A stretch of 64,000 bases of DNA, taken from Novosphingobium marinum. Its GTDB lineage: Bacteria; Pseudomonadota; Alphaproteobacteria; Sphingomonadales; Sphingomonadaceae. The notes beneath the pieces are model-generated. The model was not told the origin of the DNA and made no database searches. It saw nothing but the letters and a program-made list of their open reading frames with translations. The DNA is taken from positions 806,001-870,000 of the forward strand of contig NZ_JACBZF010000001.1 of the NCBI RefSeq assembly GCF_013408095.1, read 5' to 3'. Shown here piece by piece: positions 18,290-54,417 of this stretch; within the stretch, counting starts at the first letter, position 1; each line of letters opens with the position of its first letter. The translations under genes and the position numbers were made by a program.

Positions 18290-18330
18290 TTTTTCTCCAG
18301 CGTCAACGCAGCCCGGATCCTTTAAAAAGA

Positions 18331-18348
18331 CAATCGTGAATGTTTTTT
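18331..18348 (+). promoter_or_regulatory. Island operator site 1 (TetR-type), before Rieske gene A
   Basis: CAATCGTGAATGTTTTTT lies 75 bases before the Rieske gene start. It is one of eight related sites in the island with the form CAAWCATGWWTG plus a T run, and is preceded by AAAAAGA. I infer binding by one or both of the TetR paralogues. Confidence 0.65.
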
Positions 18349-19626: not shown

Positions 19627-19642
19627 GACGGCGACCGCGCAG

Positions 19643-20980: not shown

Positions 20981-21036
20981 CCGCCCGAAGGCCGAACCCT
21001 TCGCATGACGAATCCAAAACGCGAAGGGAGAGGGCG

Positions 21037-21807: not shown

Positions 21808-21841
21808 CGCCTCATGCCCGACCGCCCGGAAAAATAACGTT

Positions 21842-21860
21842 CAAACATGATTGTTTTTTT
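21842..21860 (+). promoter_or_regulatory. Island operator site 2 (TetR-type), before Rieske gene C
   Basis: CAAACATGATTGTTTTTTT lies 48 bases before the Rieske gene C start. The CAAACATGATTG core is nearly a perfect palindrome centred on CATG. It belongs to the eight-site family. Confidence 0.68.
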
Positions 21861-21908
21861 GCTAGAGTCTCGCAAAAGCAGACGACCGCCTGAGGGAGAT
21901 ACGCAAGG

Positions 21909-23135
21909 ATGCTCGACCTGGTAACCGACCAGCGCCCCGAAAACGACTTCGCGCGCATGGATTTCGAGCGCGAACGCAAGGACCCGCCCGAGGGGTTTCC
22001 CAAGCTGCCCGACATTCCGGGCAAGCGTTACGTCGATCCCGAGTTCCTCCGCCTCGAAAAGGAGGAGATGTGGGACAAGGCGTGGCTCTACGCGGGCCAT
22101 GTCGACCAGCTGCCCAACAAGGGAAGCTGGTTCCTGACGCGCAACACTGGCTCGCCCGTGATCGTCGTGCGCACGCTCAAGGACGAGATCAAGGCCTACT
22201 ACAACACCTGCCAGCATCGCGGCGCGCCGCTCGTGAAAGAGGAATCCGGCGAGGATCGCGGCTTCGTGTGCGGTTATCACGGCTGGAGCTACACCCTCGA
22301 CGGCAAGCTGACCGCGGTCCGCGACAAGCGCGACTTCGTCGACCTCGATTTCTCGTGCCGCTCGCTCGTCCCGGTGCGCTGCGAACTTCTGGGCTCGCTG
22401 ATCTTCCTCAACCAGGACGAGGATGCGCAGCCGCTGATGGAACACATCGGCCCGATGGCCCAGCAGCTGGAGCAGTTCCAGCTCGAGAAGCTGCGGCTTG
22501 TCGACAGTCGCAGCTACGACGTGGACTGCAACGTCAAGGTGCTCCTCGACGCGTTCCTGGAAGTCTATCACCTGAAGTCGATCCACGTCGACACGGTCGA
22601 CCGCTTCCTCGATCACCGCGCGATGATCGCCACGCTCTGGCCCAACGGGCACAGCCGCATGGCGACCCCGAACCGGCGCGACGACTGGGTCGATCCGGGC
22701 ACGAAAGGCATGCCGGAAATCCCGACGGTCAACGACTTCCCGGCCAAGAACAACGTCAGCTACCAGATCTACCCGAACTTCGTGATGCCGGCAGCGCCCA
22801 CGGGCATTCCCATCCTGCAGTTCTGGCCAATGGGTCCGAAGAAGTCGCGCGTCGTGTCGAGCTGGCTTGCGCCCGACTACGATCCGGAGAACCCGCACCC
22901 GCTGTGGCCGACGCGCCTCTCCAACTGGGAGCGCATCCTCTACGAGGACCTGCAGTTCGCACCGCAGATTCAGGAATCGCTCGAAAGCCCCGGCTTCAAG
23001 GGCATGCCGCTCAATTACCAGGAGCGCCGCATCTATCACTGGCACGAGGAACTCGACCGCCGCATCGGCCTAAACCGGGTGCCCGGGGATGCGCGGGTCG
23101 AACAGGTGCTCGAACCCTGGGTCCAGAAGGACTGA
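21909..23135 (+). CDS. Rieske oxygenase alpha subunit C
   Basis: This 408-residue protein has the Rieske motif TCQHRGAPLV ... CGYHGW and the iron site DAFLEVYHLKSIHV. It is closely similar to Rieske gene A along its length, with the same RDFPP-like and TKGMPEI / YPNF segments, so it arose by duplication. It starts a transcript under operator site 2, followed by SDR, VOC, thioesterase and MaoC genes. The substrate is unknown. Confidence 0.9.
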   Translation: MLDLVTDQRPENDFARMDFERERKDPPEGFPKLPDIPGKRYVDPEFLRLEKEEMWDKAWLYAGHVDQLPNKGSWFLTRNTGSPVIVVRTLKDEIKAYYNTCQHRGAPLVKEESGEDRGFVCGYHGWSYTLDGKLTAVRDKRDFVDLDFSCRSLVPVRCELLGSLIFLNQDEDAQPLMEHIGPMAQQLEQFQLEKLRLVDSRSYDVDCNVKVLLDAFLEVYHLKSIHVDTVDRFLDHRAMIATLWPNGHSRMATPNRRDDWVDPGTKGMPEIPTVNDFPAKNNVSYQIYPNFVMPAAPTGIPILQFWPMGPKKSRVVSSWLAPDYDPENPHPLWPTRLSNWERILYEDLQFAPQIQESLESPGFKGMPLNYQERRIYHWHEELDRRIGLNRVPGDARVEQVLEPWVQKD

Positions 23136-24470: not shown

Positions 24471-25403
24471 GTGAGCCGTACCGAACAGATGACCGCGCAA
24501 CGCGGCGCGAACCCCTACCCCGACGATCCGGCGGTCGAGCGACGCCGGGCCTACGATTTCGAGGCGGTCGGGACCGACCGTTTCCGCGTGGAGCCATGGC
24601 CGAGCGGCCTCCTGCGTCACTACGGCGGCATGGTCCTTTCGCAGTGTCTTGCCGCCGCGCAGGAGACGGTCTCGCCCGAAAAGTCCGCGCACAGCCTTCA
24701 CGCCTATTTCCTCAAGCCCGGCCTTGTCGACGAGCCGCTCGACATCGCGGTTTCGCGCGAAACCGACGGTCGCAGCTTCGCGATGCGCCAGGTCCGGATG
24801 ACGCAGGGCGGCAAGCCGGTGATGAACCTCATGGCCTCCTTCCAGATCGACGAGGATTCCGCCGACTACCTGCCCGCCGGGCCGACCGATCTCCCGGAAC
24901 CCGAGGGCCTGGAGAACATCTTCGACATCGTCGGGAGGCTGGGCGATGACCTCGTCAGGCGGCACCGTCCCTTCTGGCTGAGGCGGCATCCGGTCGACTG
25001 GCGTCCCGTCGAGCCGTTCGATTTCCGCAAGGTCGAGAAGTCCGAAAGACCGCGTCACTACTGGTTCCGCTTCTACGAACCGCCGGGCGGGGACCTTCGC
25101 ATCAACCAGCGCCTGCTGGCCTACGCGTCCGACCTCCACGTCCTTCATGCGGGCATGCAGCCGATGGGGATCGCGCCAGGCAACGACCACCTGCAACCGT
25201 CCAGCCTCGACCACGCGATGTGGTTCCATGCGCCGTTCGTTCTCGACGACTGGATGATCTACCGGCTCGAACCCGTGGCCGCGAGCAACTCGCGCGCGTT
25301 GGGGCGCGGCAGCATTTTCACGCGCGAGGGGCGCCTGGTCGCGACGACGCTCCAGCAGGGCCTGGCGCGATTGCTCGAGGAAAAGCGGACGGCATCGCTA
25401 TGA
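24471..25403 (+). CDS. Acyl-CoA thioesterase II (TesB family)
   Basis: This ~310-residue double hot-dog protein has HYGGMVLSQCLAAA, HSLHAYFLKPG, SLDHAMWFHAPF (catalytic Asp) and a C-terminal TTLQQGLAR with the catalytic Gln region. TesB enzymes hydrolyse acyl-CoA thioesters. The start is a GTG at 24471 tightly behind GGAGG, with an ATG 18 bases on as an alternative. The end overlaps the MaoC gene by 4 bases. It may release a CoA-blocked intermediate or recycle CoA. Confidence 0.85.
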   Translation: MSRTEQMTAQRGANPYPDDPAVERRRAYDFEAVGTDRFRVEPWPSGLLRHYGGMVLSQCLAAAQETVSPEKSAHSLHAYFLKPGLVDEPLDIAVSRETDGRSFAMRQVRMTQGGKPVMNLMASFQIDEDSADYLPAGPTDLPEPEGLENIFDIVGRLGDDLVRRHRPFWLRRHPVDWRPVEPFDFRKVEKSERPRHYWFRFYEPPGGDLRINQRLLAYASDLHVLHAGMQPMGIAPGNDHLQPSSLDHAMWFHAPFVLDDWMIYRLEPVAASNSRALGRGSIFTREGRLVATTLQQGLARLLEEKRTASL

Positions 25404-25894
25404 ACGGAACATCCTTCGTCGCACGCGAACCGTACCGTACCTTCGAGGACCTCGAGGTGGGCGAATTTCGCAAGTCGTCCCCGCGCACCGTGACACAGGA
25501 CGAAATCGTCGAGTTCGCTCGCTCCTACGATCCCCAGTGGTTCCATGCCGACCCCGAAAGCGCGAAGGAATCGGTTTTCGGCGAAGTCGTGGCAAGCGGC
25601 ATTCACGTGCTCGCCATGTGGCGGCAGATGGACCACGAGATCAACTGGGACATCGACCACGTCTGCGGGATCGGCTGGGACGAACTGCGCCTCAAGCGCG
25701 CGGTCAGGGCAGGCGACGTCATTCACGTGACCAGCGAGATCGTGGAGCTTAATCCGTCGAAGTCGCGTGACGACAGGGGCACCGCCCTCACCCGCTATGC
25801 CGTCGTGCTCGAGGACGGGACCGAGTGCGTCACCTTCACCAGCATCAACCTCGTCTACACTCGCGAAGGCCGGGAACGCCGCGCTCGGAGCTAG
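25400..25894 (+). CDS. MaoC-like hot-dog hydratase/dehydratase
   Basis: This 164-residue protein has a MaoC dehydratase domain with YDPQWFHADPESA, where the Asp and His are the catalytic pair, and FGEVVASGIHVLAMW, the substrate-binding glycine segment. It probably hydrates an enoyl-CoA. It is translationally coupled to the thioesterase gene (ATGA overlap). Its stop overlaps the convergent MFS gene end by 4 bases. Confidence 0.85.
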   Translation: MNGTSFVAREPYRTFEDLEVGEFRKSSPRTVTQDEIVEFARSYDPQWFHADPESAKESVFGEVVASGIHVLAMWRQMDHEINWDIDHVCGIGWDELRLKRAVRAGDVIHVTSEIVELNPSKSRDDRGTALTRYAVVLEDGTECVTFTSINLVYTREGRERRARS

Positions 25895-27221: not shown

Positions 27222-28382
27222 TCAGCGGCGCTGGTCGAAGCGGCGGCCCAGCATCGCGCCGGCGATATTCGTCTTCTGGATGTCGATCGCGCCGCCCGCG
27301 ATGCCCCAGCCCCACGAATCGCGCAGGCGCCGCTCCATCGGGAAGTCCTTAGAATAACCGTATGCGCCCATGAGCTGCAGCGCATCGCCGGTTACTTCGC
27401 GCGAGATCGAGTTGGCAAAGCACTTGCCGGTCGAGCTGTGGAGGATCGAGGGCAGGCCGTCCTCTGCAAGCGATGCCGCCCGCCAGATGAGCAGGCGCGC
27501 CGCCTCCACCTTCATGTGCATCTCGGCGAGCTTGAGCTGCACGGCCTGGAATTCGGCGATGGCCTTGCCGAACTGCTTGCGCTCCTGGACATAGTCGCAC
27601 ACGTCCTCGAGCGCGCCCGACGCCTGCGCCAGCGACATGGTCGCGTTGCCGCAGCGTTCGAGGTCGAATGCCTCCATCAGCTTCTTGAAGCCGCCTGCCG
27701 GCACGATGATGTTCCCGACCGGAATCTCGCAATCGTCGAAATTGAGGTCGGAGGACGGTACGCCGCGAAACCCCATGAGGTTCTCGTTGGGTCCGAAAGA
27801 GAGGCCGGGCGCGTCCTTCTCGACGAGAACCGCGCCGATGCCTTTGGCCCCCGGATCGTCCGAGAGGCGCACGTAGACGACGTAGGCATCGGCATGGCCG
27901 CCGCCCGAACACCAGCGCTTGGTGCCGTTGATGACGACCTTGTCACCCTTGACTACGCCCTTGGTCTTGAGGTCGGTCAGCGCCGATCCGGCGTCGGGTT
28001 CCGACATCGATACGGCAACGACCATGTCGCCCGAGCAGACGGCCGGGACGACGCGCTTCTTCAGCGCATCGGAGCCGAAGTGCTCGATCGCGCGCACAGG
28101 ACCGACCGAGGATTCGAAGACCGGAAAACCGACTGCCGACGAGATCTTGCCGAATTCCTCGAGCACGACGAGCGCCTCGATATTGCCGAGGCCGAGCCCG
28201 CCGAGATCGCTCGACACGTTGATGCCGAGGAAACCTAGTTCGGCGAACTGCTTTACGAGCGCGCGGCTCGGCGGCTTGTTGTCGCGTTCCAGCTCGGCAG
28301 CGATCGCGGGCAGTTCGGCCCTTGCGTACTCGCGCGCGGCGTCTCTCAGCTGCTGCTGATCTTCGGTCAGCTGGAAATTCAT
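27222..28382 (-). CDS. Acyl-CoA dehydrogenase with relocated catalytic base
   Basis: This 386-residue acyl-CoA dehydrogenase has VAVSMSEPDAGSALTD, NGTKRWCSGG and the C-terminal LMGAYGYSKDFPMERRLRD. At the usual catalytic position (the Glu of IYEGT) it reads IAGGAIDIQ, so Glu is replaced by Gly363. A Glu stands at residue 242 in FDLER, the helix-G place used by isovaleryl-CoA and long-chain acyl-CoA dehydrogenases. It should oxidise an acyl-CoA with a branched or bulky chain. It is 5 bases upstream of the MFS gene on the same strand. Confidence 0.9.
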   Translation of the reverse strand: MNFQLTEDQQQLRDAAREYARAELPAIAAELERDNKPPSRALVKQFAELGFLGINVSSDLGGLGLGNIEALVVLEEFGKISSAVGFPVFESSVGPVRAIEHFGSDALKKRVVPAVCSGDMVVAVSMSEPDAGSALTDLKTKGVVKGDKVVINGTKRWCSGGGHADAYVVYVRLSDDPGAKGIGAVLVEKDAPGLSFGPNENLMGFRGVPSSDLNFDDCEIPVGNIIVPAGGFKKLMEAFDLERCGNATMSLAQASGALEDVCDYVQERKQFGKAIAEFQAVQLKLAEMHMKVEAARLLIWRAASLAEDGLPSILHSSTGKCFANSISREVTGDALQLMGAYGYSKDFPMERRLRDSWGWGIAGGAIDIQKTNIAGAMLGRRFDQRR

Positions 28383-28414: not shown

Positions 28415-29782
28415 TCAGATGTCGTCCGGCTTCTTGCCGCCGGGGCCGTAGATGAAATCGTCGATGACCTTGTGGAAGTGCCGGATGCGTAGCTCCTGGT
28501 CGCCGATCCACAGGCCGGGAAAATAGTCGGACTGCATGCCCTGCTGCACGAACGGCAGGTTGAAGGCGTCCTGGTCGAGCACCTGCCCGATGGTCTTGTC
28601 GCCGTGCTTGAAGCGCTTGTGCCTCACGCGCTCGGGCCACTCCTCGCCGTCCGGGACGAGTTCGAACATCCAGATGTCGTAATACATCTTGTTCGGATCG
28701 GTCGCGTGCGGGCGCTGGCGGAACATCATGATGTCGTCGGCGTGCACGTTGAGCGAGACGTTGGGGAAAATCGTGTAGTGATAGTCGTCGGTCAGCTGCT
28801 CGTCGTGCAGTTCCGAATAGTCCTTGCCCTGTTCCGGCCCGTTTTGGCGCTTGAACAGCTGGACGTCGCGGCGGATGTCTCCGACCCGGCCGGTGTACTC
28901 CGCCGGATCCATGCCCGCGTTCACCATGATTTCGTAGATCGCGGGCGGGATCTGGCTCGGCATGGCGACGCGCGGGCTGATCGCGGCGAACGGGATCAGG
29001 TAGCGGTTGTGCTTGCCGTAACAGTCGATCTGGACGTTGACGTCGTCGAGGTACCACTTGAGCTGCGGGTGGATGCCCTGCACGTGATAGGTTTCGTTGA
29101 ACGCGTCGACCGAGGTCTTCCAGTTGCAGTCCCATTCGACCGTGATGTCGCGCTTCCATGCCATCCGTTCGGGGTGATACGGCTCGATGTGCTGCTTGAG
29201 CGGATCGATGAAATCGTCGAACGGCTCTACATCGGGATTGAGCGAGAACCAGACGAAGCTGGCCCATTCGACGCACGGGAGCGACGGCAGCGTCATTCCC
29301 GGCGGGCCGCCCTGGTGGAATGTGCACATGTCGGGGATGTGGTCGAGATTGCCGTCGAGGCCGTAGGTCCAGTGATGGTACATGCACTGGAAGCGCTCGA
29401 CGTTGCCGATGCCCTCGGGACGCAGCCTGTTGCCGCGATGGAGACAGACGTTCGGGAAGCAGCGCAGCGAACCGTCGTTCTGGCGGACGAGCAGCACGCT
29501 TTCCTTGCCGATGTCGGTGCAGATGTAGTCGCCCGGTTCTTTCAGATCGTCGGCACGCCCGCCAAGCAGCCAGGTCTTGGTCCAGATGCGATCCCATTCG
29601 AGCTTCATGAATTCTTCGGAATAGTATCGCTCGGCCGGGATCAGCTCGGTGCCCAGTTCCGGGTCGGGGGCCTTCTCCACGGGAGTGCCGTTCCCGGCCT
29701 TCTCGGGATCGTCGCGCCAGACCTCCTGGACGCGCTTGACGTCCATCCTGGTCTGGTCCCAGCCCATGACGTGCTTGTTCAT
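28415..29782 (-). CDS. Rieske oxygenase alpha subunit D
   Basis: This 455-residue protein has the Rieske motif VCLHRGNRLR ... CMYHHW and the iron site NWKTSVDAFNETYHVQGIHPQ. It is longer than genes A and C and contains an internal insertion (DPAEYTGRVGDIRRDV). The ATG at 29782 overlaps the upstream SDR stop (TGATG). It lies between that SDR and the acyl-CoA dehydrogenase on one strand, so SDR, oxygenase, dehydrogenase and transporter form one likely operon under operator site 3. Confidence 0.9.
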   Translation of the reverse strand: MNKHVMGWDQTRMDVKRVQEVWRDDPEKAGNGTPVEKAPDPELGTELIPAERYYSEEFMKLEWDRIWTKTWLLGGRADDLKEPGDYICTDIGKESVLLVRQNDGSLRCFPNVCLHRGNRLRPEGIGNVERFQCMYHHWTYGLDGNLDHIPDMCTFHQGGPPGMTLPSLPCVEWASFVWFSLNPDVEPFDDFIDPLKQHIEPYHPERMAWKRDITVEWDCNWKTSVDAFNETYHVQGIHPQLKWYLDDVNVQIDCYGKHNRYLIPFAAISPRVAMPSQIPPAIYEIMVNAGMDPAEYTGRVGDIRRDVQLFKRQNGPEQGKDYSELHDEQLTDDYHYTIFPNVSLNVHADDIMMFRQRPHATDPNKMYYDIWMFELVPDGEEWPERVRHKRFKHGDKTIGQVLDQDAFNLPFVQQGMQSDYFPGLWIGDQELRIRHFHKVIDDFIYGPGGKKPDDI

Positions 29783-30692: not shown

Positions 30693-30710
30693 AAAAAACA
30701 TTCACGCATG
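30693..30710 (-). promoter_or_regulatory. Island operator site 3 (TetR-type), between SDR and TetR gene 1
   Basis: The minus strand reads CATGCGTGAATGTTTTTT. It lies in the divergent region, 51 bases before the TetR gene 1 start and 150 bases before the SDR start, so it could control both. It is one of the eight-site family. Confidence 0.65.
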
Positions 30711-30760
30711 CTTTTTCTCGCGGGATTATTGGTCTACCGTCCTCGTTCTGAAAGGCCGGG

Positions 30761-31447
30761 GTGGCCGTACCGGGACAGGAGCACGTGGGAGCAAGCGCGA
30801 AAAGAGCACAGGCGGTCGAGGCGGCCACGGTGGCGGCAAAGCCGCGCTCGCACCAGGCGAACAAGAGCGCCGCGACGCGCAAGCGCCTGATCGACGCTGC
30901 CATAAAATGCATCGTCAAGCACGGCTATGCCGATACCACGACATTGCAGGTGGCGAACGAGGCAGGCCTTTCGCGCGGGGCGATGCTTCACCATTTCGAG
31001 AACGGTCGCGAGCTCATCAAGGCGACCGTCGCCGAACTGCACGAGCGGCGGCTCAATGCCTTCCGCCGCGCGGCGGAACGCAATGCCGAAAACAGCCGCG
31101 GCATGGTCCGCGATTACTGGAGGCAACTGCAGAAACCGGGATTCGTCGCTTTCCAGGAGCTGGCGATGGCTGCCCGCACCAATGCCGAGCTTGCCGAAAT
31201 CCTGCACCCGATGCAGGTCGAATTCCGGGAGCGGCTGCACGAGCTTGCCGTGCAACTCTTCCCCGAATGGCAATCGCGGCCCGAACAGTTCGAACTGGCG
31301 ATGGCACTGGCCCAGACCCTGACCGAGGGCGCGGCGACGGCATTGCTGACAGGCGCGCTCGAACCCGAGATGGTGGAGCCGCTGCTCGACGAGCTTGAAC
31401 ACAGGATCGTGGCCCTGCGTCCCGGCGCGAAGAACGACAACGTCTGA
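30761..31447 (+). CDS. TetR-family regulator 1
   Basis: This 228-residue protein has an N-terminal TetR helix-turn-helix (residues ~41-85) with recognition helix GLSRGAMLHHFE at 69-80, and a helical ligand-binding C-terminal domain. It is paralogous to TetR 2 (36082), whose recognition helix is nearly the same, so both should bind the same operator. The start is GTG at 30761; another GTG at 30785 with a better AGGAG is possible. It probably represses the divergent SDR operon and its own gene, with a CoA ester or pathway intermediate as inducer (inference). Confidence 0.88.
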   Translation: MAVPGQEHVGASAKRAQAVEAATVAAKPRSHQANKSAATRKRLIDAAIKCIVKHGYADTTTLQVANEAGLSRGAMLHHFENGRELIKATVAELHERRLNAFRRAAERNAENSRGMVRDYWRQLQKPGFVAFQELAMAARTNAELAEILHPMQVEFRERLHELAVQLFPEWQSRPEQFELAMALAQTLTEGAATALLTGALEPEMVEPLLDELEHRIVALRPGAKNDNV

Positions 31448-31488: not shown

Positions 31489-32691
31489 ATGAGCGGTCGT
31501 GGAGCCGGCCCGCTGGCCGGCGTTACGGTGCTGGACCTGACCAGCGTCCTGATGGGGCCTTATGCGACCCAGATTTTCGCAGACCTCGGCGCCGACGTCG
31601 TCAAGATCGAAAGCCCCTCCGGCGACACCACGCGCTATATCCCGCCCGGTCCCGATGCGGACCGGGGCGCGATGTTCCTAAACGTCAATCGCGGCAAGCG
31701 CAGCCTCGGCCTCAACCTCAAGACGGAGGAGGCACGCGCGGCGCTGCTCCGGCTGGCAGCGAAGGCCGACGTCTTCGTGCATACCATGCGCTCGCAGGCG
31801 ATCGCTCGGCTCGGTCTCGACTACGCAGCGCTGAAGGCGGCGAACCCGCGCATCATCTACTGCAACATGTACGGGTACGGCCGGAAGGGTCCCTACCGCG
31901 ATCACCCTGCCTACGACGACATCGTGCAGGCGGCGTCGGGGATCGTCGACCTGCAGGCGAGCCTTAGCGGTGGTGAGCCGACATATGTCGCCAATGTCAT
32001 CGCCGACAAGGTGGCGGGCCTTACCGGGGCCTACGCGGTCATGGCGGCGCTCTATGCGCGCGAGAAAACGGGCGAAGGGCAGGAGATCGAAGTCCCGATG
32101 TTCGAGACGATGGTGTCGTTCTGCGCGACCGAGCACCTGTGCGGTTCGCTGTTCGATCCCCCGCTTGGCCCTCCGCACTATCCGCGCGCCACGTCCGAAG
32201 CGCGCCGCCCCTATCGCACGGCGGACGGCTACGTCGGGGTGATGATCTACAACGACAAGCACTGGCGAAACTTCTTCCGCGAGCTCGGCGATCCCGACTG
32301 GTCAAAGGACCCCATCTTCCAATCGATGCGGACGCGGACCGAGAACATCGGCACCGTCCTTTCGCGCGTCGCCGAAGTGCTCGAGACCAGGAGGACTGCC
32401 GAGTGGCTGGACATCTTCCGGCGCGCCGAAATTCCCGCGACCGCGATCGCCTCGCTTACCGAACTCCTCGACGACGAGCACTTGCGAGAGGTCGGGTTCT
32501 GGGAGCGCCGCGTGACGCCGATGGGCACGCTGCGCTTTCCCGGCATCCCGACCTCGTTCTCGGAAACGCCCGGCGCGATCGGGGATCCCGGGCCGGCGCT
32601 GGGGGCGGACAACGACGCGCTTCTGCGGGAGGCGGGATACACCGACACGGAAATCGATAAATTGCGGTCGAAGGGAGCGATAACGGGATGA
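31489..32691 (+). CDS. Family III CoA-transferase (CaiB/BaiF type)
   Basis: This 400-residue protein starts PLAGVTVLDLTSVLMGPYAT and has DLGADVVKIE, NRGKRSLGLNL and PAYDDIVQAAS with the catalytic Asp near residue 143. Family III CoA-transferases pass CoA from one thioester to a free acid. It probably activates a carboxylic acid substrate or intermediate without ATP. A GAGAGGA ribosome-binding site precedes the ATG, and the stop overlaps the DUF35 gene by 4 bases. Confidence 0.88.
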   Translation: MSGRGAGPLAGVTVLDLTSVLMGPYATQIFADLGADVVKIESPSGDTTRYIPPGPDADRGAMFLNVNRGKRSLGLNLKTEEARAALLRLAAKADVFVHTMRSQAIARLGLDYAALKAANPRIIYCNMYGYGRKGPYRDHPAYDDIVQAASGIVDLQASLSGGEPTYVANVIADKVAGLTGAYAVMAALYAREKTGEGQEIEVPMFETMVSFCATEHLCGSLFDPPLGPPHYPRATSEARRPYRTADGYVGVMIYNDKHWRNFFRELGDPDWSKDPIFQSMRTRTENIGTVLSRVAEVLETRRTAEWLDIFRRAEIPATAIASLTELLDDEHLREVGFWERRVTPMGTLRFPGIPTSFSETPGAIGDPGPALGADNDALLREAGYTDTEIDKLRSKGAITG

Positions 32692-33059
32692 GCGGAGCAG
32701 ACGCACACTGGGATGCCGCACTGGCGGAAGGCCGCATACTTCTCCAGCGCCCGATATCGGGCGGACAGGCGATCTTCCCGCCGCGCATCATGGCGCCGGG
32801 TTCGGGCGACAAACTCGAATGGTTCGAGGCTTCGGGCGACGGGGAGGTCTATTCGGTCACCTGGGTGCAGCAAAAGCCCCCGAAACCTGCGTACAATGTC
32901 GTGATCGTCGAACTGGCCGAGGGCGCGCGGATGATGTCGCGCGTCGAGGGCGTGGACGAGGACGCGCTGCGCATCGGCATGCCCGTGAAGGCCCGCATCG
33001 CGGAAACCGAGGACGGCCCGGTCATCGTCTTCGACGCGAAGGAGAACGCTCATGGGTGA
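32688..33059 (+). CDS. DUF35 OB-fold protein without zinc-ribbon cysteines
   Basis: This 123-residue protein has the DUF35 layout: an N-terminal rubredoxin-like segment (FPPRIMAPGSG near residues 30-40), then an OB fold (VYSVTWVQ ... YNVVIVELAEGARMMSRV). The four zinc cysteines of usual members are absent and the protein has no cysteine at all. DUF35 proteins pair with thiolase-like partners, as in IpfE and the ChsH2-Ltp2 complex. It overlaps the thiolase-like gene by 8 bases, so the two are made together. Confidence 0.85.
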   Translation: MSGADAHWDAALAEGRILLQRPISGGQAIFPPRIMAPGSGDKLEWFEASGDGEVYSVTWVQQKPPKPAYNVVIVELAEGARMMSRVEGVDEDALRIGMPVKARIAETEDGPVIVFDAKENAHG

Positions 33060-34203
33060 TACCTTCGCTACCGGAAAGGTCTCGGTCGCCGGCGTCGCCA
33101 CGTTCGGCGTCGGGGAAGCGCCGGGCTACTCGACGATCGAGCTTGCCGCACAGGCCACCAGGATGGCGATGGCCGACGCAGGCGTGAGCCTGCCGCAAGT
33201 CGACGGGCTGTTCATCTGCCTTCCGGACGACCTCTTCTCCGCGCTGTCGCTCGCGCAGTATCTCGGCATCCATCCGCGCTTCACCGACAACAACCGAAAT
33301 GGTGGATCGTCCTTTCTGAGCCATCTAGTCACCGCCTGCGCGATGCTCGATGCCGGATACCTGGATTGCGCGGTGATCGCCTACGGATCGAACCAGCGTT
33401 CGAGCGGGGGCAAGCTTGCGACGCCGGCAGGTGCGGACAGGTGGGATGCGCCGTACAGGCCCCGCTACCCGGTTTCGCTCTATGCGCTGGCGGCGGCTCG
33501 ACACATGCACCGGTACGGCACCACGCGCGAGCAGCTTGCCGAAGTCGCCGTCGCCGCGCGGCAATGGGCGAACACGAACCCCGAGGCGTTCGCGCAGGGT
33601 CCGCTCACGGTCGAGGATATCCTTGCCACCCGCATGATCAGCACGCCGATTTCGGTCGGCGATTGCTGCCTGGTGACGGACGGTGCGGCCGCGCTTGTGC
33701 TGCGCCGGACCGAAGATGCCCGGCAGGGTCAGGACGCGCCGGTGCCGATCCTCGGCGCGGCAGCAGCCACCTGGTACAACTCGGTTACGCAGGCCGAGGA
33801 CCTGACTGTCACTTCGGCCAGGGAATCAGGCGCGCGTGCACTCGCCATGGCGGGGCTGACGCCTGCCGACATCGACGTAGTCCAGCTTTACGATGCCTTC
33901 ACGATCAACACGATCCTGTTCCTCGAGGACCTCGGCTTCTGCAAGAAGGGCGAAGGCGGGGATTTCGTGTCGGGCGGTCGGATTGCGCCGGGTGGCTCGC
34001 TGCCCGTGAACACGAACGGCGGAGGCCTGTCGTGCTGTCATCCGGGCATGTACGGCATGTTCACCATGGCCGAGGCGATCCGCCAGATGCGCGGCATCGC
34101 TGCGAACCAGATCGAGGGCGCCGAGACCGCCCTTGCCCATGCGAACGGCGGCACGCTTTCGGCTCAGGCGACGGTAGTGTTCGGCTCACCGGCAACGGTT
34201 TAG
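33052..34203 (+). CDS. Thiolase-like (SCPx-type) protein, probable aldolase/deacylase
   Basis: This 383-residue thiolase-fold protein lacks both catalytic cysteines. The first site reads GGSSFLSH at 84-91 where thiolases have Cys, and the third reads HANGGT at 363-368 instead of a Cys-containing loop. His330 of the CHPG motif is kept. Such proteins act with DUF35 partners as retro-aldolases or side-chain deacylases: Ltp2 in steroid degradation and IpfD in ibuprofen degradation. I infer the same kind of chemistry here. It follows the DUF35 gene with an 8-base overlap. Confidence 0.85.
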   Translation: MGDTFATGKVSVAGVATFGVGEAPGYSTIELAAQATRMAMADAGVSLPQVDGLFICLPDDLFSALSLAQYLGIHPRFTDNNRNGGSSFLSHLVTACAMLDAGYLDCAVIAYGSNQRSSGGKLATPAGADRWDAPYRPRYPVSLYALAAARHMHRYGTTREQLAEVAVAARQWANTNPEAFAQGPLTVEDILATRMISTPISVGDCCLVTDGAAALVLRRTEDARQGQDAPVPILGAAAATWYNSVTQAEDLTVTSARESGARALAMAGLTPADIDVVQLYDAFTINTILFLEDLGFCKKGEGGDFVSGGRIAPGGSLPVNTNGGGLSCCHPGMYGMFTMAEAIRQMRGIAANQIEGAETALAHANGGTLSAQATVVFGSPATV

Positions 34204-34215
34204 CCGGACCACTCG

Positions 34216-35853
34216 TCAGGCAAGCTGGAGTTCGTCGATCAGGTCCTGGCGCAGTTTGAACTTCTGGATCTTCGAGGTCGACATCGGCCATTCGCTCACG
34301 AAGCGGACGTGCCGGGGGACCTTGAAGCTGGAAATCTTGCCCTTGCAGTGCTCGATAAGCTCCTGCTCGGTCGCGGACTTGCCCGGTGCCAGCTCGACGA
34401 AGGCGGCGGGCACTTCCGAATAGCGATCGTCGGGCAGGCCGACGACCTGCGCCAGTTTGACCGCCTCGTGCGTCTGCAGCATCGATTCGATCTCCGCCGC
34501 GGCGACGTTCTCTCCGCCGACCTTGAGCATGTCCTTGGTCCGGCCGTGGAACATGACGTTGCCGTTGGCATCGATCGAGCCGATATCGCCGGTGTAGAAC
34601 CAACCGCCGCGGATCGCTTCGGCGGTTTTCTCGGGCGCGTTGTAATATCCCTTGAGCATGTTCGGCCCGCGCAACGCGATCTCGCCGCGGTTGCCTGCCG
34701 CGCAGTCTTCGCCCGTTTCGGGATCGACGATGCGCATCTCCCATTCCTCGAGCGGAGTGCCGCACTTGCCCGTGCGAACCTCGTAACTGTCGGACAGGCG
34801 GCTCGTCGAGACGGTTCCGGCGCCCTCGGTAAGGCCATAGGTCCCGACCTGGATCGTGTGCGGCATCGCCTTTGCGACCGCGTTCTTGATCCACTCGGGC
34901 TGTACCGCGAAATTCGAATTCATCACGCGAAGCTTCGACAGGTCTGTCTTGTCGAAAGTGTCGTGCGTGATGAGGTCCTGCATGATCGTGACGAAACTGG
35001 GATAGGCGATCGTCGCGCCCTCCCGGCCGAGCATCTCCAGAGCGACTCCCGCATCGAAATACGAGACCGTCAGGTAGGCGCCGCCGATATCGAGGATCAT
35101 CGTCATCGGCAGGATTCCGGCGATGTGATAGATTGGCAGCGGCGACCAGACCTTGTCTTCGCTCGTGCATTCGTAGCGCTTGCCGAGGTTGCGGCTGTTG
35201 CCGACCTGCGAGCGGTGCGCGATCATCGCGCCCTTCGGATTCGCGGTGGTCCCCGACGTATAGAGCACCATCGCGGTGTCTTCGGCGTCGACGTCGTCGA
35301 TCCGTGCATCGATGACCGAATCCTCGATCCCCTCGCCCCTTGCCAGCGCGTCCTTCATCGGCACGAGGTAGGACGGGCAGCTCGCATCGAGGCAGATGAT
35401 GGTGCGCAGCGCGGGGGCTTCGTCGAGCTTGAGGTGTGCCGCGTCCGTCGCGTCCTTCAGTGAAGGAAGCGCAGTGGCCAGCCTTTCGCCGAAGTCGAGG
35501 TTGTCGGTGATCCTGCCGGTGGTCACGATGGCGACAAGGTCGGCATCGCGCGCGACGAAGCCCAGTTCGTGCGCCTGGTAGCGCGCATTGACCGGCACGG
35601 CGACCGCACCGATCATCACGATGCCGTAGAATGCCTCGATGAATTCGGAGCATGTCGGAAGCAAGAGGCCGACGTGCTCGCCGGGGCGAACCCCCATCGC
35701 GACGAAAGCCTTCGCCCAGCGGCGCGCGGATGCCTCCAACTGGGCGTAATTCAGCCTGCGGTCGGGAAAGACGATCGCATCCCGGTCCGCGAATCTCGCT
35801 GCCGATGCCCGCAGCATTTCGCCCATGGTGTAGATCGGCTGTGCTTCGCCCAT
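34216..35853 (-). CDS. Acyl-CoA ligase (AMP-binding family)
   Basis: This 545-residue protein has the AMP-binding signature LYTSGTTANPKGAMIAH, YGLTEGAG, GWFYTGDIG, GRTKDMLKVGGENV and a C-terminal lysine segment STSKIQKFKL. It adenylates a carboxylic acid and forms its CoA thioester. I chose the ATG at 35853, which has GAGAGGA a few bases upstream; an ATG at 35877 lacks one. It converges on the thiolase-like gene and starts at operator site 4 together with divergent TetR gene 2. The acid is unknown; fatty, aryl-alkanoic and terpenoid acids are all possible. Confidence 0.9.
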   Translation of the reverse strand: MGEAQPIYTMGEMLRASAARFADRDAIVFPDRRLNYAQLEASARRWAKAFVAMGVRPGEHVGLLLPTCSEFIEAFYGIVMIGAVAVPVNARYQAHELGFVARDADLVAIVTTGRITDNLDFGERLATALPSLKDATDAAHLKLDEAPALRTIICLDASCPSYLVPMKDALARGEGIEDSVIDARIDDVDAEDTAMVLYTSGTTANPKGAMIAHRSQVGNSRNLGKRYECTSEDKVWSPLPIYHIAGILPMTMILDIGGAYLTVSYFDAGVALEMLGREGATIAYPSFVTIMQDLITHDTFDKTDLSKLRVMNSNFAVQPEWIKNAVAKAMPHTIQVGTYGLTEGAGTVSTSRLSDSYEVRTGKCGTPLEEWEMRIVDPETGEDCAAGNRGEIALRGPNMLKGYYNAPEKTAEAIRGGWFYTGDIGSIDANGNVMFHGRTKDMLKVGGENVAAAEIESMLQTHEAVKLAQVVGLPDDRYSEVPAAFVELAPGKSATEQELIEHCKGKISSFKVPRHVRFVSEWPMSTSKIQKFKLRQDLIDELQLA

Positions 35854-35930
35854 TGTCCTCTCGCCTTCGCTTCTCATGCCCTTCGCTCGCGACGGAGCGA
35901 TCGTTGTGTTCTGGGGGCGAACTTATCCAT

Positions 35931-35970
35931 GCCGATAAAAAAGACAATCATTCATGTCTTTTTTATCGGC
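35931..35970. promoter_or_regulatory. Island operator site 4: long perfect palindrome
   Basis: Two 16-base arms, GCCGATAAAAAAGACA and its exact complement, flank 8 bases (ATCATTCA). The core CAATCATTCATG matches the island operator family. It lies between the acyl-CoA ligase (77 bases away) and TetR gene 2 (111 bases away), a divergent promoter. It is the longest and most symmetric site in the window. A terminator is unlikely because the arms are A+T-rich and it lies between divergent starts. Confidence 0.72.
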
Positions 35971-36081
35971 ATGATGCACAATCGGGCGGATATTACGGGC
36001 ATTCTTGCACAGAACCGCAAACGCTCGCTAAGAACAGGCGCGAGAGGTGCGCAAGCGCGCGACAATAACAGGACAGGCGCA

Positions 36082-36741
36082 ATGGCCCTACCCCGCACGA
36101 AGACCGAGAAGGAAGGCGAAGTCGCGCTGGCCCCTCGCAACGCCGGGACGCTGCAATCGGCGAAGGCGGCGCAGACGCGTGCAAGGCTGATCGACGCCAC
36201 GATCCGCTGTCTCGTCAAATACGGCTATGCCAAGACGACGACACCGCGCGTTGCCGCCGAAGCAGGCCTGTCGCGCGGGGCGATGATGCATCATTTCGAA
36301 AACAGCGCCGCGCTGGTCAAGGCGACGGTGATCGCACTGCACGAACGTCGCCTGCGCGCGTTCCGCCGGGCTGCGGACAAGCCGCAGCATGAGGTCGGCG
36401 ATCTCGTCGCGGCCTATTGGCGGCAGGTCCAGAAGCCTGCCTTCATCGCTTTCCACGAACTTGCCGTCGCTGCCCGGACCGATCCCGACCTCGCGCGGAT
36501 CATGAAGCCGTTGCAGGAGGAATTCACCGAACGGTTCAATGCGCAGGCCGAGCAGCTTTTTCCCGAATGGGAAGGTGCGCGGCGCGAGTTCGACCTCGCC
36601 ATGAGCCTTTCGCAGACCATCCTCGAAGGCATGGCGATCGCGGTCGAGACCGGTGCGATGAGTCGCGAGAAAGTGGAGCCGCTCCTGCGCAACCTCGAGG
36701 ATCAGATTCGCGCGCTGATGCCCGGCGACAATCGCGCGTGA
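36082..36741 (+). CDS. TetR-family regulator 2
   Basis: This 219-residue protein is a paralogue of TetR regulator 1. Both share RLIDA-T/A-I, the recognition helix GLSRGAMMHHFE (residues 62-73) and the C-terminal HERRLRAFRRA and LFPEWE segments. It probably controls the acyl-CoA ligase and its own gene through operator site 4 and perhaps other sites. The ATG at 36082 has AGGACAGG upstream; a longer frame crossing the operator was rejected. Confidence 0.88.
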   Translation: MALPRTKTEKEGEVALAPRNAGTLQSAKAAQTRARLIDATIRCLVKYGYAKTTTPRVAAEAGLSRGAMMHHFENSAALVKATVIALHERRLRAFRRAADKPQHEVGDLVAAYWRQVQKPAFIAFHELAVAARTDPDLARIMKPLQEEFTERFNAQAEQLFPEWEGARREFDLAMSLSQTILEGMAIAVETGAMSREKVEPLLRNLEDQIRALMPGDNRA

Positions 36742-36772
36742 CCGGCCGTGCCCGGCGCGCGGTACAAAAAAT

Positions 36773-36792
36773 CAAACCTGTTTGTCTTTTTT
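36773..36792 (+). promoter_or_regulatory. Island operator site 5 (TetR-type), before SDR gene
   Basis: CAAACCTGTTTG, a near-perfect palindrome, is followed by TC and six T, 76 bases before the SDR TTG start. ATCAAA and TTTGAT stand outside it as an outer repeat. It belongs to the eight-site family. Confidence 0.65.
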
Positions 36793-39783: not shown

Positions 39784-41133
39784 TCAGCTTTCGAGCCAGC
39801 GATCCAGTTCGACGTGGAAGTGGCGCAAGCGCGCTTCCTGCTCGCACCACAGCGGGCCACGGAAACCTCGCGAACGGGCGCCCTTCTGCACGCTGGGCAG
39901 AAGGTCCGAATCCTGGTCGAGCACCTCGCCCATTCCGGGCGGCTCGCCAAGGCCGGTATGCGCGATCTCGGGACGGGTAGCGCCGGTCAGGTCGACCTCA
40001 TCGCCCAGCCCCATCCAGCCCGGCGCGCCATAGCCGGGCGCGTCGACGTGACGGTACATGATCGTCGTGTCGTAGGTGAATTTCTCCGGATCGTCCTCGT
40101 AGGGCTTGAACCGGTGCAGGAAAACCGCTTCCGGGTGGCAGCCGATCTGCGCGTTGGGAAACAGCCCGAAAATCGTGCTGTCGGTGAGCTGCGCGTCGGA
40201 AAACCGGTCGTAGTCGAGCCCCATCTCCTTCGCGCGCTTGCGCTTGGCGAGCGCTACCGCGGCGCGGCTTTCCTGCGCAGTGCCCTCGAAGCTGTCCGGA
40301 TCGACTCCTGCGTCCTTCAGAAGCATTGCGATGCCCGGATTGATGCCCTCCTGGTCGGAGAAGTGCGAGTTGGGCTGCGCCATCGGCACGAACTGGCGGC
40401 TGAACCCGCGTTCGTAGAGGTCGATATGCGTGCGATCGTCGATCACGCCCATCGTCTGCGGATGGATCGCATGGAGGTGATAGCTTTCGTAGAACGCGTC
40501 GATGCCGCCCTTCCAGTTCGCCGCCCAGTCCGACCGGCGATGCTGGACCACGTGCATCTTGTCAATCTCGTAGGTCTCGATCAGGGACAGGATCGGGGCG
40601 AGATATTCCTTCAGCGGCGGGGCCTCGTCCGACATGCAGATGAAGACGAGGCCGGCAGCTTCATCGGCCCGGATCGTCGAAAGGTCGGTACCGTGGCACA
40701 GGACCTCGGGACGGAACGTTTCCTCGTCCGTGACTTTGATGTTGCTGCCGTCGAGGCCGAACTGCCAGCTGTGAAACGGACAGGTGAAGCTGTCCTGGCT
40801 TCCCATCTCGGTGGTGACCAGCTGGCTGCCGCGATGCGGACACACGTTGTAATGCGCCGCCAGCGATCCGTCGTTCAGGCGAACGACGATGAAGCTTTCG
40901 GGTCCGATATCGAACTTGAACCAGTCGCCGGCTTCCTGAAGGTCGCTGGACGGACCGGCGAGCAGCCAGGTCTTGGTGAAGACCTTTTCCCACTCGCGAT
41001 CGAAGAATTCCTTCGAGGTGTACCGCGAGGGATCGGGCCGCTCGGACCCGTTGTCTATCGGTTCGGCATGGCGGTCGAAGGGATGCTCCGAATCCTTGTG
41101 AACCGCCCAGCTTCTGGGATCGTAGTTCACCAT
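39784..41133 (-). CDS. Rieske oxygenase alpha subunit E
   Basis: This 449-residue protein has the Rieske motif VCPHRGSQLV ... CPFHSW and the iron site NWKGGIDAFYESYHLHAIHPQ. It is a tandem paralogue of Rieske gene F: most segments match closely, including SRQFVP and GARSRGFRGPLW. It overlaps F by 7 bases. No beta subunit or electron-transfer gene is adjacent. The substrate is unknown. Confidence 0.9.
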   Translation of the reverse strand: MVNYDPRSWAVHKDSEHPFDRHAEPIDNGSERPDPSRYTSKEFFDREWEKVFTKTWLLAGPSSDLQEAGDWFKFDIGPESFIVVRLNDGSLAAHYNVCPHRGSQLVTTEMGSQDSFTCPFHSWQFGLDGSNIKVTDEETFRPEVLCHGTDLSTIRADEAAGLVFICMSDEAPPLKEYLAPILSLIETYEIDKMHVVQHRRSDWAANWKGGIDAFYESYHLHAIHPQTMGVIDDRTHIDLYERGFSRQFVPMAQPNSHFSDQEGINPGIAMLLKDAGVDPDSFEGTAQESRAAVALAKRKRAKEMGLDYDRFSDAQLTDSTIFGLFPNAQIGCHPEAVFLHRFKPYEDDPEKFTYDTTIMYRHVDAPGYGAPGWMGLGDEVDLTGATRPEIAHTGLGEPPGMGEVLDQDSDLLPSVQKGARSRGFRGPLWCEQEARLRHFHVELDRWLES

Positions 41134-42485
41134 TCACCCCGGTTCATCATGCGATCGAGCTCGCCGTGGAAGTGGCGCAGGCGACCCTCCTGTTCGCTCC
41201 ACAGCGGCCCCCGGAACCCGCGCGAGCGCGCGCCCTTCTGGACGATGGGGAGCAGGTCGGAATCCTGGTCGAGCACTTCGCCGAGACCCGGCGGCTCGCC
41301 CAGGCCCGTATGGACGATCTCCGGCCGAGTCTCCCCCGAAAGGTCGGTTTCGGGGCCAAGGCCCATCCACGCGGGCGCGCTGTATCCCGGTGCATCGACA
41401 TCGCGATAGAGGATGCAGGTGTCGTATGTGAACTGGTTGGGATCGCTCTCGTGCGGGAGGAAACGATGGAGGAAGATCGCTTCGGGGTGACACCCGATCT
41501 GCGTGTTCGGGAAGATCGAGTACACTACCGAGTCGCTGAGCTGGCTGTCGCTGAACTTCTCGTAGCCGAGGTCGAGATCGTCTGAGCGCTTGCGCTTGGC
41601 CTGCTGCACGGCAGCGCGAGTTTCGGCGGCAGTTCCCTGGTAAGTCTCAGGATCGATCCCGGCATCGCGCAGCATGAGCTGGATGCCCGGGTTGACCGTC
41701 TCTTGGTCGGGGTAGCGCTCGGCAGGCTGCGCGAACGGCACGAACTGCCGGCTGAGGCCGCCTTCCCACAGATCGATCTGCGTGCGGTCGTCCATCAGGC
41801 ACTGAGTCTGCGGGTGAACGGCGTGCAGGTGATAAATCTCGGCGAAGGCGTCGACGCCGCCTTTCCAGTTCGCCCCCCAGTCGGACTTGCGATGCTGCAC
41901 GACGTACATCTTGTCGATGTCGTACAGCTCGAGCTGCGGCAGGATCGGCGCGAGGAATTCCTTCAGCGGCTTGATGTTCTCGTCCATCGAGATGAACACG
42001 AGGCCGACCGCCACTTCACAGCGAACCGAAGTGAGGTTGCGGTCATGGCAAAGCACTTCCGGACGGAAAGTCTCTTCATCGGTAACCTTGGTATTGTGCC
42101 CCTCGAGGTCGAACTGCCAGCTGTGGAACGGGCAGGTAAATTGCTCGACAGTGCCGAAGTCGCTCTCGACAAGTTGGCTGCCGCGGTGCGGGCAGACATT
42201 GTAGTGCGCCTTGATCGCACCGTCCTCGCCGCGAACGACGATGAAGCTTTCGGGGCCGATGTCGAACTTGAAGAAGTCGCCCGGCTCGGGAATGTCGGAT
42301 GCCGGACCGGCCAGCAGCCAGCTCCTGGCGAAGACCTTCTCCCACTCCTCATGCGCGAACTCGTCGTCGTGATAGCGCGCCGGCGAAGGACGGTCAGTGC
42401 CGTTATCGATCTTCGGCGCACGCTTGTTGAACGGGTGCGGCGTGCCGACGTGAATGTTCCAGTCTTCGAAATCGAGCTTCATCAT
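41127..42485 (-). CDS. Rieske oxygenase alpha subunit F
   Basis: This 452-residue protein has the Rieske motif VCPHRGSQLV ... CPFHSW and the iron site NWKGGVDAFAEIYHLHAVHPQ. It is the upstream member of a tandem pair with gene E; the high similarity shows a recent duplication. GGAGAGGACAG precedes the ATG at 42485. An upstream frame extension runs into operator site 6 and was rejected. Confidence 0.9.
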   Translation of the reverse strand: MMKLDFEDWNIHVGTPHPFNKRAPKIDNGTDRPSPARYHDDEFAHEEWEKVFARSWLLAGPASDIPEPGDFFKFDIGPESFIVVRGEDGAIKAHYNVCPHRGSQLVESDFGTVEQFTCPFHSWQFDLEGHNTKVTDEETFRPEVLCHDRNLTSVRCEVAVGLVFISMDENIKPLKEFLAPILPQLELYDIDKMYVVQHRKSDWGANWKGGVDAFAEIYHLHAVHPQTQCLMDDRTQIDLWEGGLSRQFVPFAQPAERYPDQETVNPGIQLMLRDAGIDPETYQGTAAETRAAVQQAKRKRSDDLDLGYEKFSDSQLSDSVVYSIFPNTQIGCHPEAIFLHRFLPHESDPNQFTYDTCILYRDVDAPGYSAPAWMGLGPETDLSGETRPEIVHTGLGEPPGLGEVLDQDSDLLPIVQKGARSRGFRGPLWSEQEGRLRHFHGELDRMMNRGEW

Positions 42486-42587: not shown

Positions 42588-42605
42588 AAAAAACATGCAT
42601 GATTG
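42588..42605 (-). promoter_or_regulatory. Island operator site 6 (TetR-type), between Rieske F and VOC gene
   Basis: The minus strand reads CAATCATGCATGTTTTTT in the divergent region between Rieske gene F (102 bases) and the VOC gene (58 bases). One site could control both directions. Confidence 0.66.
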
Positions 42606-42663
42606 TTTGGCAAGGGCAATCGGACAAAATGCGCCCTGATTGCGACACGGGAGAGTATACACG

Positions 42664-49418: not shown

Positions 49419-49498
49419 CCCCTGCTCCTCTCCTTTGGATCCCCGCCATTACCTGCGGGTGATGCAGGTTTGATAACAGCATGTCGGACATTGGCAAT

Positions 49499-49517
49499 CA
49501 ATCATGAATGTTTTTTT
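49499..49517 (+). promoter_or_regulatory. Island operator site 7 (TetR-type), before TonB receptor
   Basis: CAATCATGAATGTTTTTTT lies 80 bases before the TonB receptor start in the divergent region, 59 bases from site 8. With site 8 it may allow cooperative control of both directions. Confidence 0.67.
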
Positions 49518-49575
49518 CCGCAGAAATCCGCATGGGTGTGGCAAGAAAGGCGCACGCGGACCCGCCGGGCAAAGG

Positions 49576-49594
49576 CAAACATGTTTGTTTTTTT
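49576..49594 (+). promoter_or_regulatory. Island operator site 8 (TetR-type), before SnoaL gene 1
   Basis: CAAACATGTTTGTTTTTTT holds a perfect 12-base palindrome, 64 bases before the SnoaL gene start. It is the closest match to the family consensus. Confidence 0.7.
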
Positions 49595-51411: not shown

Positions 51412-51425
51412 GGAGAAACGAAAAC

Positions 51426-51728: not shown

Positions 51729-51732
51729 GCCG

Positions 51733-54086: not shown

Positions 54087-54147
54087 GACGGGCCTATAGC
54101 CGGGCTTTGCCCTTGCCTCCATCCGTCGCTCGCCCTACCGCGCGGCC

Positions 54148-54414: not shown

Positions 54415-54417
54415 GGC

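Follow-up and report, generated by a model that had tools for sequence, protein, structure and literature searches.

A probable, conserved member of the DUF35-thiolase-fold aldolases encoded in a Rieske-rich gene island of Novosphingobium marinum

Among the closest described systems are two solved complexes of a thiolase-fold protein with a DUF35 protein, the steroid aldolase Ltp2-ChsH2 (6ok1) and the bile-acid aldolase Sal-Shy (9myr), which act on C3 and C5 steroid side chains, respectively. Mutagenesis reported in PMC12329534 assigns the role of base to Tyr294 and that of acid to Tyr344 in TcLtp2, and finds Tyr302 and Cys304 to be essential in CtSal, in which Gly takes the place of the thiolase nucleophile; the same source describes the N-terminal helix of the DUF35 protein of Sal-Shy as wrapping the aldolase. 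In ibuprofen degradation, IpfABHI dihydroxylates ibuprofen-coenzyme A (CoA), and IpfD and IpfE release isobutylcatechol and propionyl-CoA, as summarized in a review (PMC10004696). Here, we analyzed a 64,000-nucleotide stretch of Novosphingobium marinum DNA (hereafter the window; assembly GCF_013408095.1, contig NZ_JACBZF010000001.1, positions 806,001 to 870,000), which encodes a thiolase-fold protein of 383 residues and, in a gene that overlaps its own by 8 bp, a DUF35 protein of 123 residues. The pair is conserved, probably belongs to the DUF35-thiolase-fold aldolases, and is, to our knowledge, uncharacterized.

The thiolase-fold protein scores 594.4 bits against the NCBIfam model PRK06158 ('acetyl-CoA acetyltransferase', NF004811), well above the cut-off of 421, and is thus a member of that subfamily. 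Forty NCBIfam models matched; among the matches listed, 24 other models fell below their cut-offs, and the model of the Ltp2 steroid aldolases, PRK07855, gave 232.2 bits against a cut-off of 469. Pfam Thiolase_C_1 matches with 215.4 bits. When 299 genomes drawn from the phylum were searched, 13 held a PRK06158 protein above the cut-off.

A preliminary description of this locus, made from the sequence, had noted the motifs GGSSFLSH at residues 84-91 and HANGGT from residue 363, a retained His330, and the loss of the nucleophilic Cys. Translation bears out these motifs and His330, and none of the eight cysteines of the protein (residues 56, 96, 106, 205, 206, 297, 328, and 329) stands at either of the two thiolase catalytic positions. 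The residue in the nucleophile's place, however, is Gly85 and not Ser86 or Ser87, as judged both by alignment to benzoylsuccinyl-CoA thiolase and by a separate MAFFT alignment; BbsB and the thiolase 7yvy have Cys there. We aligned the protein with 49 relatives of 54-77% identity, hand-picked from 80 that were fetched. Gly84, Gly85, Tyr280, Asp281, Ala282, Phe283, His330, and Pro331 are each identical in all 50 rows, residue 86 is Ser in 45 and Ala in 5, and no Cys aligns at the nucleophile column. Since Gly85, Tyr280, and His330 are invariant, the loss of the Cys is not a matter of chance. The preliminary description had also stated that placement among true thiolases with a compensating Cys would speak against it, and no such Cys stands in the nucleophile column of these 50 rows. 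Several cysteines elsewhere are conserved (Cys206 in 50 rows, Cys297 in 49, Cys205 in 48, Cys328 in 43, and Cys329 in 19). As compensating residues they seem improbable: Ltp2 also has the DCC stretch and the cysteine of GFC, which were therefore read as structural, and Cys328 is Tyr in 4u4e.

Comparison with the characterized aldolases points to the residues that may replace the thiolase machinery. Tyr302 of CtSal and Tyr294 of TcLtp2 align with Tyr280, Tyr344 of TcLtp2 aligns with His330, and Ala282 is the equivalent of Cys304 in CtSal and His296 in TcLtp2. From these columns we infer that Tyr280 is the base and that His330 is the acid or an oxyanion partner. In a wider set of 83 rows, reaching down to 22% identity, the PRK06158-like rows and 4u4e keep YD[A/S/C]F with His; the Ltp2 side shows YDHF, YDCF, or YENF with Tyr; IpfD has YDAF with Tyr; the Sal types have YDCY with Gln; and Cys occupies the nucleophile column in only five rows, which make up the thiolase group. 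The putative catalytic pair therefore matches neither Ltp2, Sal, nor IpfD exactly. The nearest solved relative by sequence, 4u4e, a 'putative thiolase' of Sphaerobacter thermophilus (45-47% identity), shares GGSSF, YD[S]F, and HPGMYG with the query but has Ser in place of Ala282. The N. marinum genome encodes three further thiolase-fold proteins, two with the nucleophilic Cys (C1:40508-41611 and C1:290466-291599, both adjoined by PF01796 matches) and one without it (C2:878026-879156); one paralogue of the genome, L002, carries YDCF and has neither His nor Tyr at the His330 column.

The predicted structure is consistent with this assignment. The AlphaFold2 model of the thiolase-fold protein has a mean predicted local distance difference test score (pLDDT) of 90.1, with a weak stretch at about residues 321-330, and its two highest Z scores are to 9myr (51.6; root mean square deviation 1.9 over 366 aligned residues) and 6ok1 (50.6; 2.1 over 366). 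Nearly tied with these are 4u4e (50.5; 1.7 over 347) and TbSLP (50.2), followed by the archaeal acetoacetyl-CoA thiolase complex 6esq (49.9), the thiolase 7yvy (48.1), BbsB (46.2), and classical thiolases (about 36); 4u4e, 6ok1, and 9myr also hold the top Foldseek ranks. The protein thus resembles Ltp2 and Sal in its fold, its DUF35 partner, its base Tyr or the equivalent of it, and the missing nucleophile, for which Sal, too, has Gly. It differs from Ltp2, which has YDHF and Tyr344 where the query has YDAF and His330, and from Sal, which needs Cys304 (Ala282 in the query) and has YDCY and Gln at the His330 column. Overall, the features of DUF35-dependent thiolase-fold aldolases in the broad sense, namely the fold with a DUF35 partner gene and a base Tyr without a nucleophilic Cys, are all present here (the latter two in all 50 rows), and the suggestion in the preliminary description of an Ltp2-like retro-aldolase pair lacking catalytic cysteines gains support from the related solved complexes.

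The DUF35 protein contains no cysteine, and translation confirms this as well as the 8-base overlap that had been described earlier. Its AlphaFold2 model (pLDDT 93.1) matches Trf (Z 16.2), 6ok1_D (15.2), and 9myr_B (14.3) over 116-120 residues, nearly its full length and including the N-terminal helix. The cysteines of the CxxC...CxxC ribbon are replaced with the alignment in register, so the zinc-ribbon pattern is absent. The DUF35 protein of Ltp2-ChsH2, in contrast, has a four-Cys zinc ribbon and is part of a MaoC-type hydratase subunit, and that of Sal-Shy has a zinc finger. A DUF35 gene is present in 76 of the 80 relatives' loci and lies at most 300 bp from the thiolase-fold gene in 73; of these 73 adjacent partners, 33 have the ribbon pattern and 40 lack it. 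When mapped onto a rapidly built tree of the thiolase-fold proteins, presence or absence of the ribbon requires 4 changes among 43 scored rows (17 with the ribbon and 26 without), as opposed to a mean of about 13.5 in shuffles, none of which (0 of 500) was as low; the starred branches force 2 changes. This small number of changes indicates that the loss of zinc is inherited in part of the family and is not an oddity of this genome. In an alignment of 37 DUF35 proteins (the query and 36 hand-picked from the 42 references listed, out of 78 found), the ribbon is missing in 29 rows; two rows, L119 and L122, come from genes that are not close to the thiolase match.

By analogy with these complexes, we think it fairly probable that the pair acts as a heterotetramer that cleaves the bond between C-alpha and C-beta of a beta-hydroxyacyl-CoA, likely one with a beta-branched or ring-attached side chain. 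The two proteins would assemble as in Sal-Shy and Ltp2-ChsH2. A CoA ester made by a CaiB-type CoA-transferase or an acyl-CoA ligase would be converted to the beta-hydroxy ester by an acyl-CoA dehydrogenase and a hydratase, after which Tyr280 would abstract the proton of the hydroxyl group. Because Gly85 offers no cysteine, no acyl-enzyme would form, and the CoA enolate would be protonated, most likely by His330 at the position of the acid Tyr344 of Ltp2, so that a small acyl-CoA is released together with a ketone or an aldehyde. A tertiary beta-alcohol does not undergo the oxidation to a ketone that is required for thiolysis; since such an alcohol is not oxidizable, a beta-branched or ring-attached side chain that yields a ketone would be the likeliest type of substrate.

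The gene neighborhoods of relatives were compared by tblastn with the window's proteins, a search that misses distant members of the families. Among the 52 of 80 loci that span at least 19 kb, an acyl-CoA dehydrogenase was found in 39, a hydratase in 34, CaiB in 30, an acyl-CoA ligase in 13, and a Rieske protein in 5, compared with 2, 1, 1, 0, and 1, respectively, of 20 control stretches of 20 kb taken from arbitrary places in 20 other genomes. These counts make a beta-hydroxyacyl-CoA a likelier substrate than a ring-dihydrodiol-CoA. Aldehyde dehydrogenase was not enriched (7 of 52 versus 3 of 20) and was not found in the window with one query at E 0.001, which fits a ketone product. The likely route is thus a beta-oxidation-like one that ends in aldolytic cleavage, with a ketone more likely to be released than an aldehyde. 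On seven plasmids from outside the sphingomonads (Polaromonas, Azospirillum, Variovorax, Roseovarius, Achromobacter, Paraburkholderia, and Sulfitobacter), whose gene tables are incomplete, an acyl-CoA dehydrogenase, a hydratase, and a CoA-transferase lie near the thiolase in all seven, a CoA ligase in six (not Paraburkholderia), and a Rieske gene in none; the DUF35 gene of the Azospirillum plasmid is not adjacent to the thiolase.

The preliminary description had likened the locus to IpfD and IpfE; on such a reading, a Rieske enzyme would ipso-dihydroxylate an aryl-acyl-CoA and the pair would then remove the acyl chain with restoration of aromaticity. We took the ipf genes from pIBU218 and assigned them by gene order with the help of PMC9195938. 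IpfD is 42% identical to the thiolase-fold protein over 233 residues, shares YDAF and the absence of a nucleophilic Cys, and has PRK06158 as its best NCBIfam model (287 bits, under the cut-off of 421); IpfE likewise lacks the zinc-ribbon pattern, a ligase lies nearby in both systems, and the seven Rieske oxygenases of the island all lie downstream of the operator-like sites described below when gene runs are followed. Yet IpfD has Tyr at the His330 column, making a Tyr/Tyr pair in place of Tyr280/His330, and it clusters with the Ltp2-type proteins in our trees (96/77 in the first and 97/93 in the second). Constraining it to the query's group, which was defined after the first tree, was weakly rejected (approximately unbiased test, p 0.0345). 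We grade the evidence that IpfD stands apart from the query's group as moderate, because IpfD sits on a long branch and its best hidden Markov model is PRK06158. Further, IpfA and IpfB form an alpha-beta dioxygenase that adjoins IpfD and IpfE, whereas the island encodes seven alpha subunits but lacks any beta subunit (all 10 PF00866 matches of the genome, one of them below the cut-off, are on other contigs), and Rieske genes lie near only 6 of the 80 relatives. The ipf route also needs neither the acyl-CoA dehydrogenase nor the hydratases that the island contains, and the ligase is only 27% identical to IpfF. The label IpfD/IpfE-like is therefore not retained, and we regard deacylation of this type as unlikely. 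Besides ipfDEF, the ibuprofen plasmid has another DUF35-aldolase module (pIBU218 50938-54556) with CaiB, a hydratase, a zinc-ribbon DUF35 protein, and an Ltp2-type protein above the PRK07855 cut-off; its layout is nearer to that of the window than is the layout of ipfDEF.

Somewhat less likely still is a retro-Claisen enzyme like BbsAB, in which CoA or water would attack a beta-keto ester directly. The bbs operon comprises CaiB, acyl-CoA dehydrogenase, hydratase, SDR, DUF35, and thiolase-fold genes, and the same kinds of genes occur here; benzylsuccinate CoA-transferase is one of several matches of the CaiB protein, the related BbsB also has a DUF35 partner, and His330 is kept. However, BbsAB is annotated as a thiolase and has the nucleophilic Cys at the Gly85 position and HDAF, with His rather than Tyr at position 280, while no Cys is aligned in the query's family, and a thiolase free of a nucleophile would require a novel mechanism. 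The fold is also shared with PhlC and TbSLP, and PhlB is a DUF35 protein, so one might think of a synthetic or acyl-transferring enzyme (an aldol synthase or a Friedel-Crafts acylase like PhlABC) or of a decarboxylase of malonyl-CoA type, as tested for TbSLP. This seems improbable: the PhlC-type Protein Data Bank (PDB) entry 9skm is a C88S mutant, implying that its Cys was under study, CtSal did not decarboxylate malonyl-CoA (PMC12329534), and the neighboring genes are degradative in kind. The loss of the catalytic cysteines could finally mark a non-catalytic or scaffold paralogue, but Tyr280 and His330, together with most positions of the surrounding YDAF and HPGMY motifs, do not vary in any of the 50 rows. 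A dead enzyme would hardly keep them, which leaves this explanation with very little probability.

Several observations weigh against the retro-aldolase interpretation that we prefer. Ala282 replaces the Cys304 that CtSal needs and the His296 of TcLtp2, so both known catalytic sets are incomplete, and the pocket-shaping zinc site of the DUF35 protein of Sal is absent. His330 is the catalytic His of true thiolases as well and fits a thiolase-derived reaction equally. In the structural comparison of single chains rather than the complex, the aldolases differ from the annotated thiolases 6esq and 7yvy by merely 2-3.5 Z. Ten rows of a side branch adjacent to 4u4e (L032, L035, L036, and L074-L080; 38-42% identity) have GGCS[F/W], with a Cys one column from its usual position, and L073 (49% identity) has GGCAP with a Cys likewise one column along. 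The control stretches came from genomes other than those of the test loci, and the incomplete gene table of Sphingobium TomTYG74 lists no acyl-CoA dehydrogenase in the vicinity of the pair. No biochemically characterized member of the PRK06158 subfamily was found in the mostly open-access literature, so the reaction is assigned by homology. That literature likewise held no paper on the 4u4e thiolase or on PRK06158, and the papers found on DUF35/thiolase operons were steroid-related by title.

Table 1. Features of the window around the DUF35-thiolase-fold pair
Feature	Coordinates	Strand	Support or remark
Rieske alpha subunits A (18424-19626), B (19610-20980), and C (21909-23135)	18424..23135	+	PF00355 and PF00848; hydratase between B and C
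Enoyl-CoA hydratase/isomerase	21037..21807	+	PF00378, 169 bits
MaoC-like hydratase	25400..25894	+	PF01575
Acyl-CoA dehydrogenase that may catalyze the step preceding hydration	27222..28382	-	Pfam
Rieske alpha subunit D	28415..29782	-	PF00355 and PF00848
Operator-like site between SDR 29782 and TetR1-CaiB-DUF35-thiolase	30693..30716		AAAAGACA-N8-TGTCTTTT, 3 mismatches
TetR-type regulator 1, head of the putative operon	30761..31447	+	PF00440; 55% identity with TetR 2
CaiB family III CoA-transferase	31489..32691	+	PF02515, 388 bits
DUF35/ChsH2-type OB-fold protein, 123 aa	32688..33059	+	Pfam PF01796 OB_ChsH2_C, 69.4 bits
Thiolase-fold protein, 383 aa, subfamily PRK06158, proposed CoA-ester retro-aldolase (Tyr280/His330)	33052..34203	+	NCBIfam NF004811, 594.4 bits; AlphaFold2 model; active-site columns
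AMP-binding acyl-CoA ligase	34216..35853 (gene call; open reading frame extends to 35877)	-	PF00501, 256 bits
Perfect 19-bp inverted repeat with 8-nt spacer, proposed operator, between ligase and TetR 2	35928..35973
TetR-type regulator 2, divergent from ligase	36082..36741	+	PF00440
Operator-like site upstream of SDR 36884	36767..36790
Operator-like site preceding Rieske gene 18424	18325..18348
Rieske alpha subunits E and F (66% mutual identity)	39784..42485	-
Operator-core site in the gap that separates Rieske 41127 from the divergent VOC gene 42664	42593..42606
Rieske alpha subunit G	45439..46806	-
TonB-dependent receptor	46902..49385	-
Two operator-like sites (49498, 49570) between TonB receptor and SnoaL-like gene 49659	49498..49593

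The pair is embedded in a compact gene arrangement (Table 1). The CaiB and DUF35 genes share 4 bp, a point absent from the preliminary description, and the CaiB gene follows the first TetR gene after a gap of 41 bp, such that TetR1-CaiB-DUF35-thiolase would be a single transcript. The ligase gene does adjoin the pair, as had been stated, but it is convergent with the thiolase-fold gene at a distance of 12 bp; being on the opposite strand, it is a neighbor of the pair outside the pair's transcript. CaiB, DUF35, and thiolase-fold genes are contiguous in 14 of 19 compared loci (L042-L060); some of the loci used here and in the 83-row alignment come from the same genome or from near-identical strains (L042/L056). 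In these 19 loci the ligase converges on the pair in 6, and a homologue of a Rieske gene of the window lies within the fetched stretch in 11. In three of them (L042, L043, and L051), a set of alpha-keto-acid dehydrogenase genes separates Rieske D from the acyl-CoA dehydrogenase; the window has no such set there. Related clusters occur in Novosphingobium resinovorum, N. sediminis, Sphingomonas oligoaromativorans, Sphingobium RAC03, and Croceicoccus marinus; listings of papers on these named relatives revealed no substrate, and the PDB relatives of the ligase and CaiB are too broad to point to one.

The proposed operator between the ligase and the second TetR gene is the longest inverted repeat found in the window, and its inner portion, AAAAAGACA-N8-TGTCTTTTT, is retained in all seven orthologous gaps examined, or six when the two on one contig (L053 and L109) are counted once. 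Motifs were derived from the window sites before the genome was counted. The core ACAATCATKMATGT, with at most 1 mismatch, occurs 4 times in the 3.59-Mb genome, always in the island (reversed control, 0), and AAAAGACA-N8-TGTCTTTT, with at most 3 mismatches, occurs at 6 places, 5 of them in the island (reversed control, 1). All seven window sites lie between called genes, in six gaps, and when same-strand runs of genes are followed, each of the 32 genes called between 18424 and 52029 (about 34 kb, with seven Rieske genes and the TonB receptor) is downstream of a site-bearing gap. If such runs correspond to operons, as we presume, the sites suggest a TetR-controlled regulon that may extend across the island. 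In a comparison across genomes, the operator pattern with at most 1 mismatch was found in 6 of the 71 genomes searched (reversed control, 2 of 71). Five of these six (G000, G009, G027, G028, and G031) have a thiolase match of 65-100% on the same contig, about 56 kb away in G009, and the sixth, G010, has the pattern without such a match. The pattern is present in 5 of the 7 genomes with a match of at least 65%; it was not found in G018 and G020, whose matches (67-79%) lie on contigs of 6.7 and 8.5 kb.

The preliminary description had mentioned several Rieske enzymes nearby, and seven alpha subunits are indeed present, although no alpha-beta pair is. Across the whole 3.59-Mb genome, PF00848 has 46 matches, 7 of them in the island, and there are 10 beta-subunit matches. 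KshA was not named among the solved relatives of Rieske D and F at E 0.001, the two of the seven Rieske genes that were tried. A steroid or bile-salt role of the island is one conceivable reading; PMC8399759, PMC8540908, and PMC12882949 describe bile-salt clusters of Sphingomonadaceae with Scd4AB, the TesA2-like Nov2c349, SteA/B, and Hsh2. At 49659-52029, three SnoaL-like and two ABM-family genes stand in a row that is partly conserved in related clusters.

Taken more broadly, the PRK06158 proteins, which occur in many Pseudomonadota and are annotated as 'thiolase' or 'acetyl-CoA acetyltransferase', may constitute an uncharacterized class of CoA-ester retro-aldolases with a Tyr/His pair, Ala in the middle of the motif, and, in part of the class, a zinc-free DUF35 partner; in the sphingomonad island they would serve one TetR-controlled regulon that dismantles a polycyclic or branched natural acid by means of alpha-only Rieske oxygenases. 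We offer this wider proposal tentatively, as an idea that could well prove wrong in part. If it is true, the acyltransferase annotation that the subfamily bears in many catabolic clusters is wrong; 305 plasmid records contained matches spanning at least 80% of the thiolase-fold protein, a count in which subfamilies and near-identical plasmids are mixed. Within the thiolase fold, retro-aldol cleavage would then be served by at least three acid-base combinations: Tyr/Tyr (Ltp2), Tyr/Cys (Sal), and Tyr/His (the present protein). With the pair, one could test directly how bacteria trim side chains that resist beta-oxidation. The operator-like sites, in turn, provide a gene list for one sphingomonad pathway of which we found no description.

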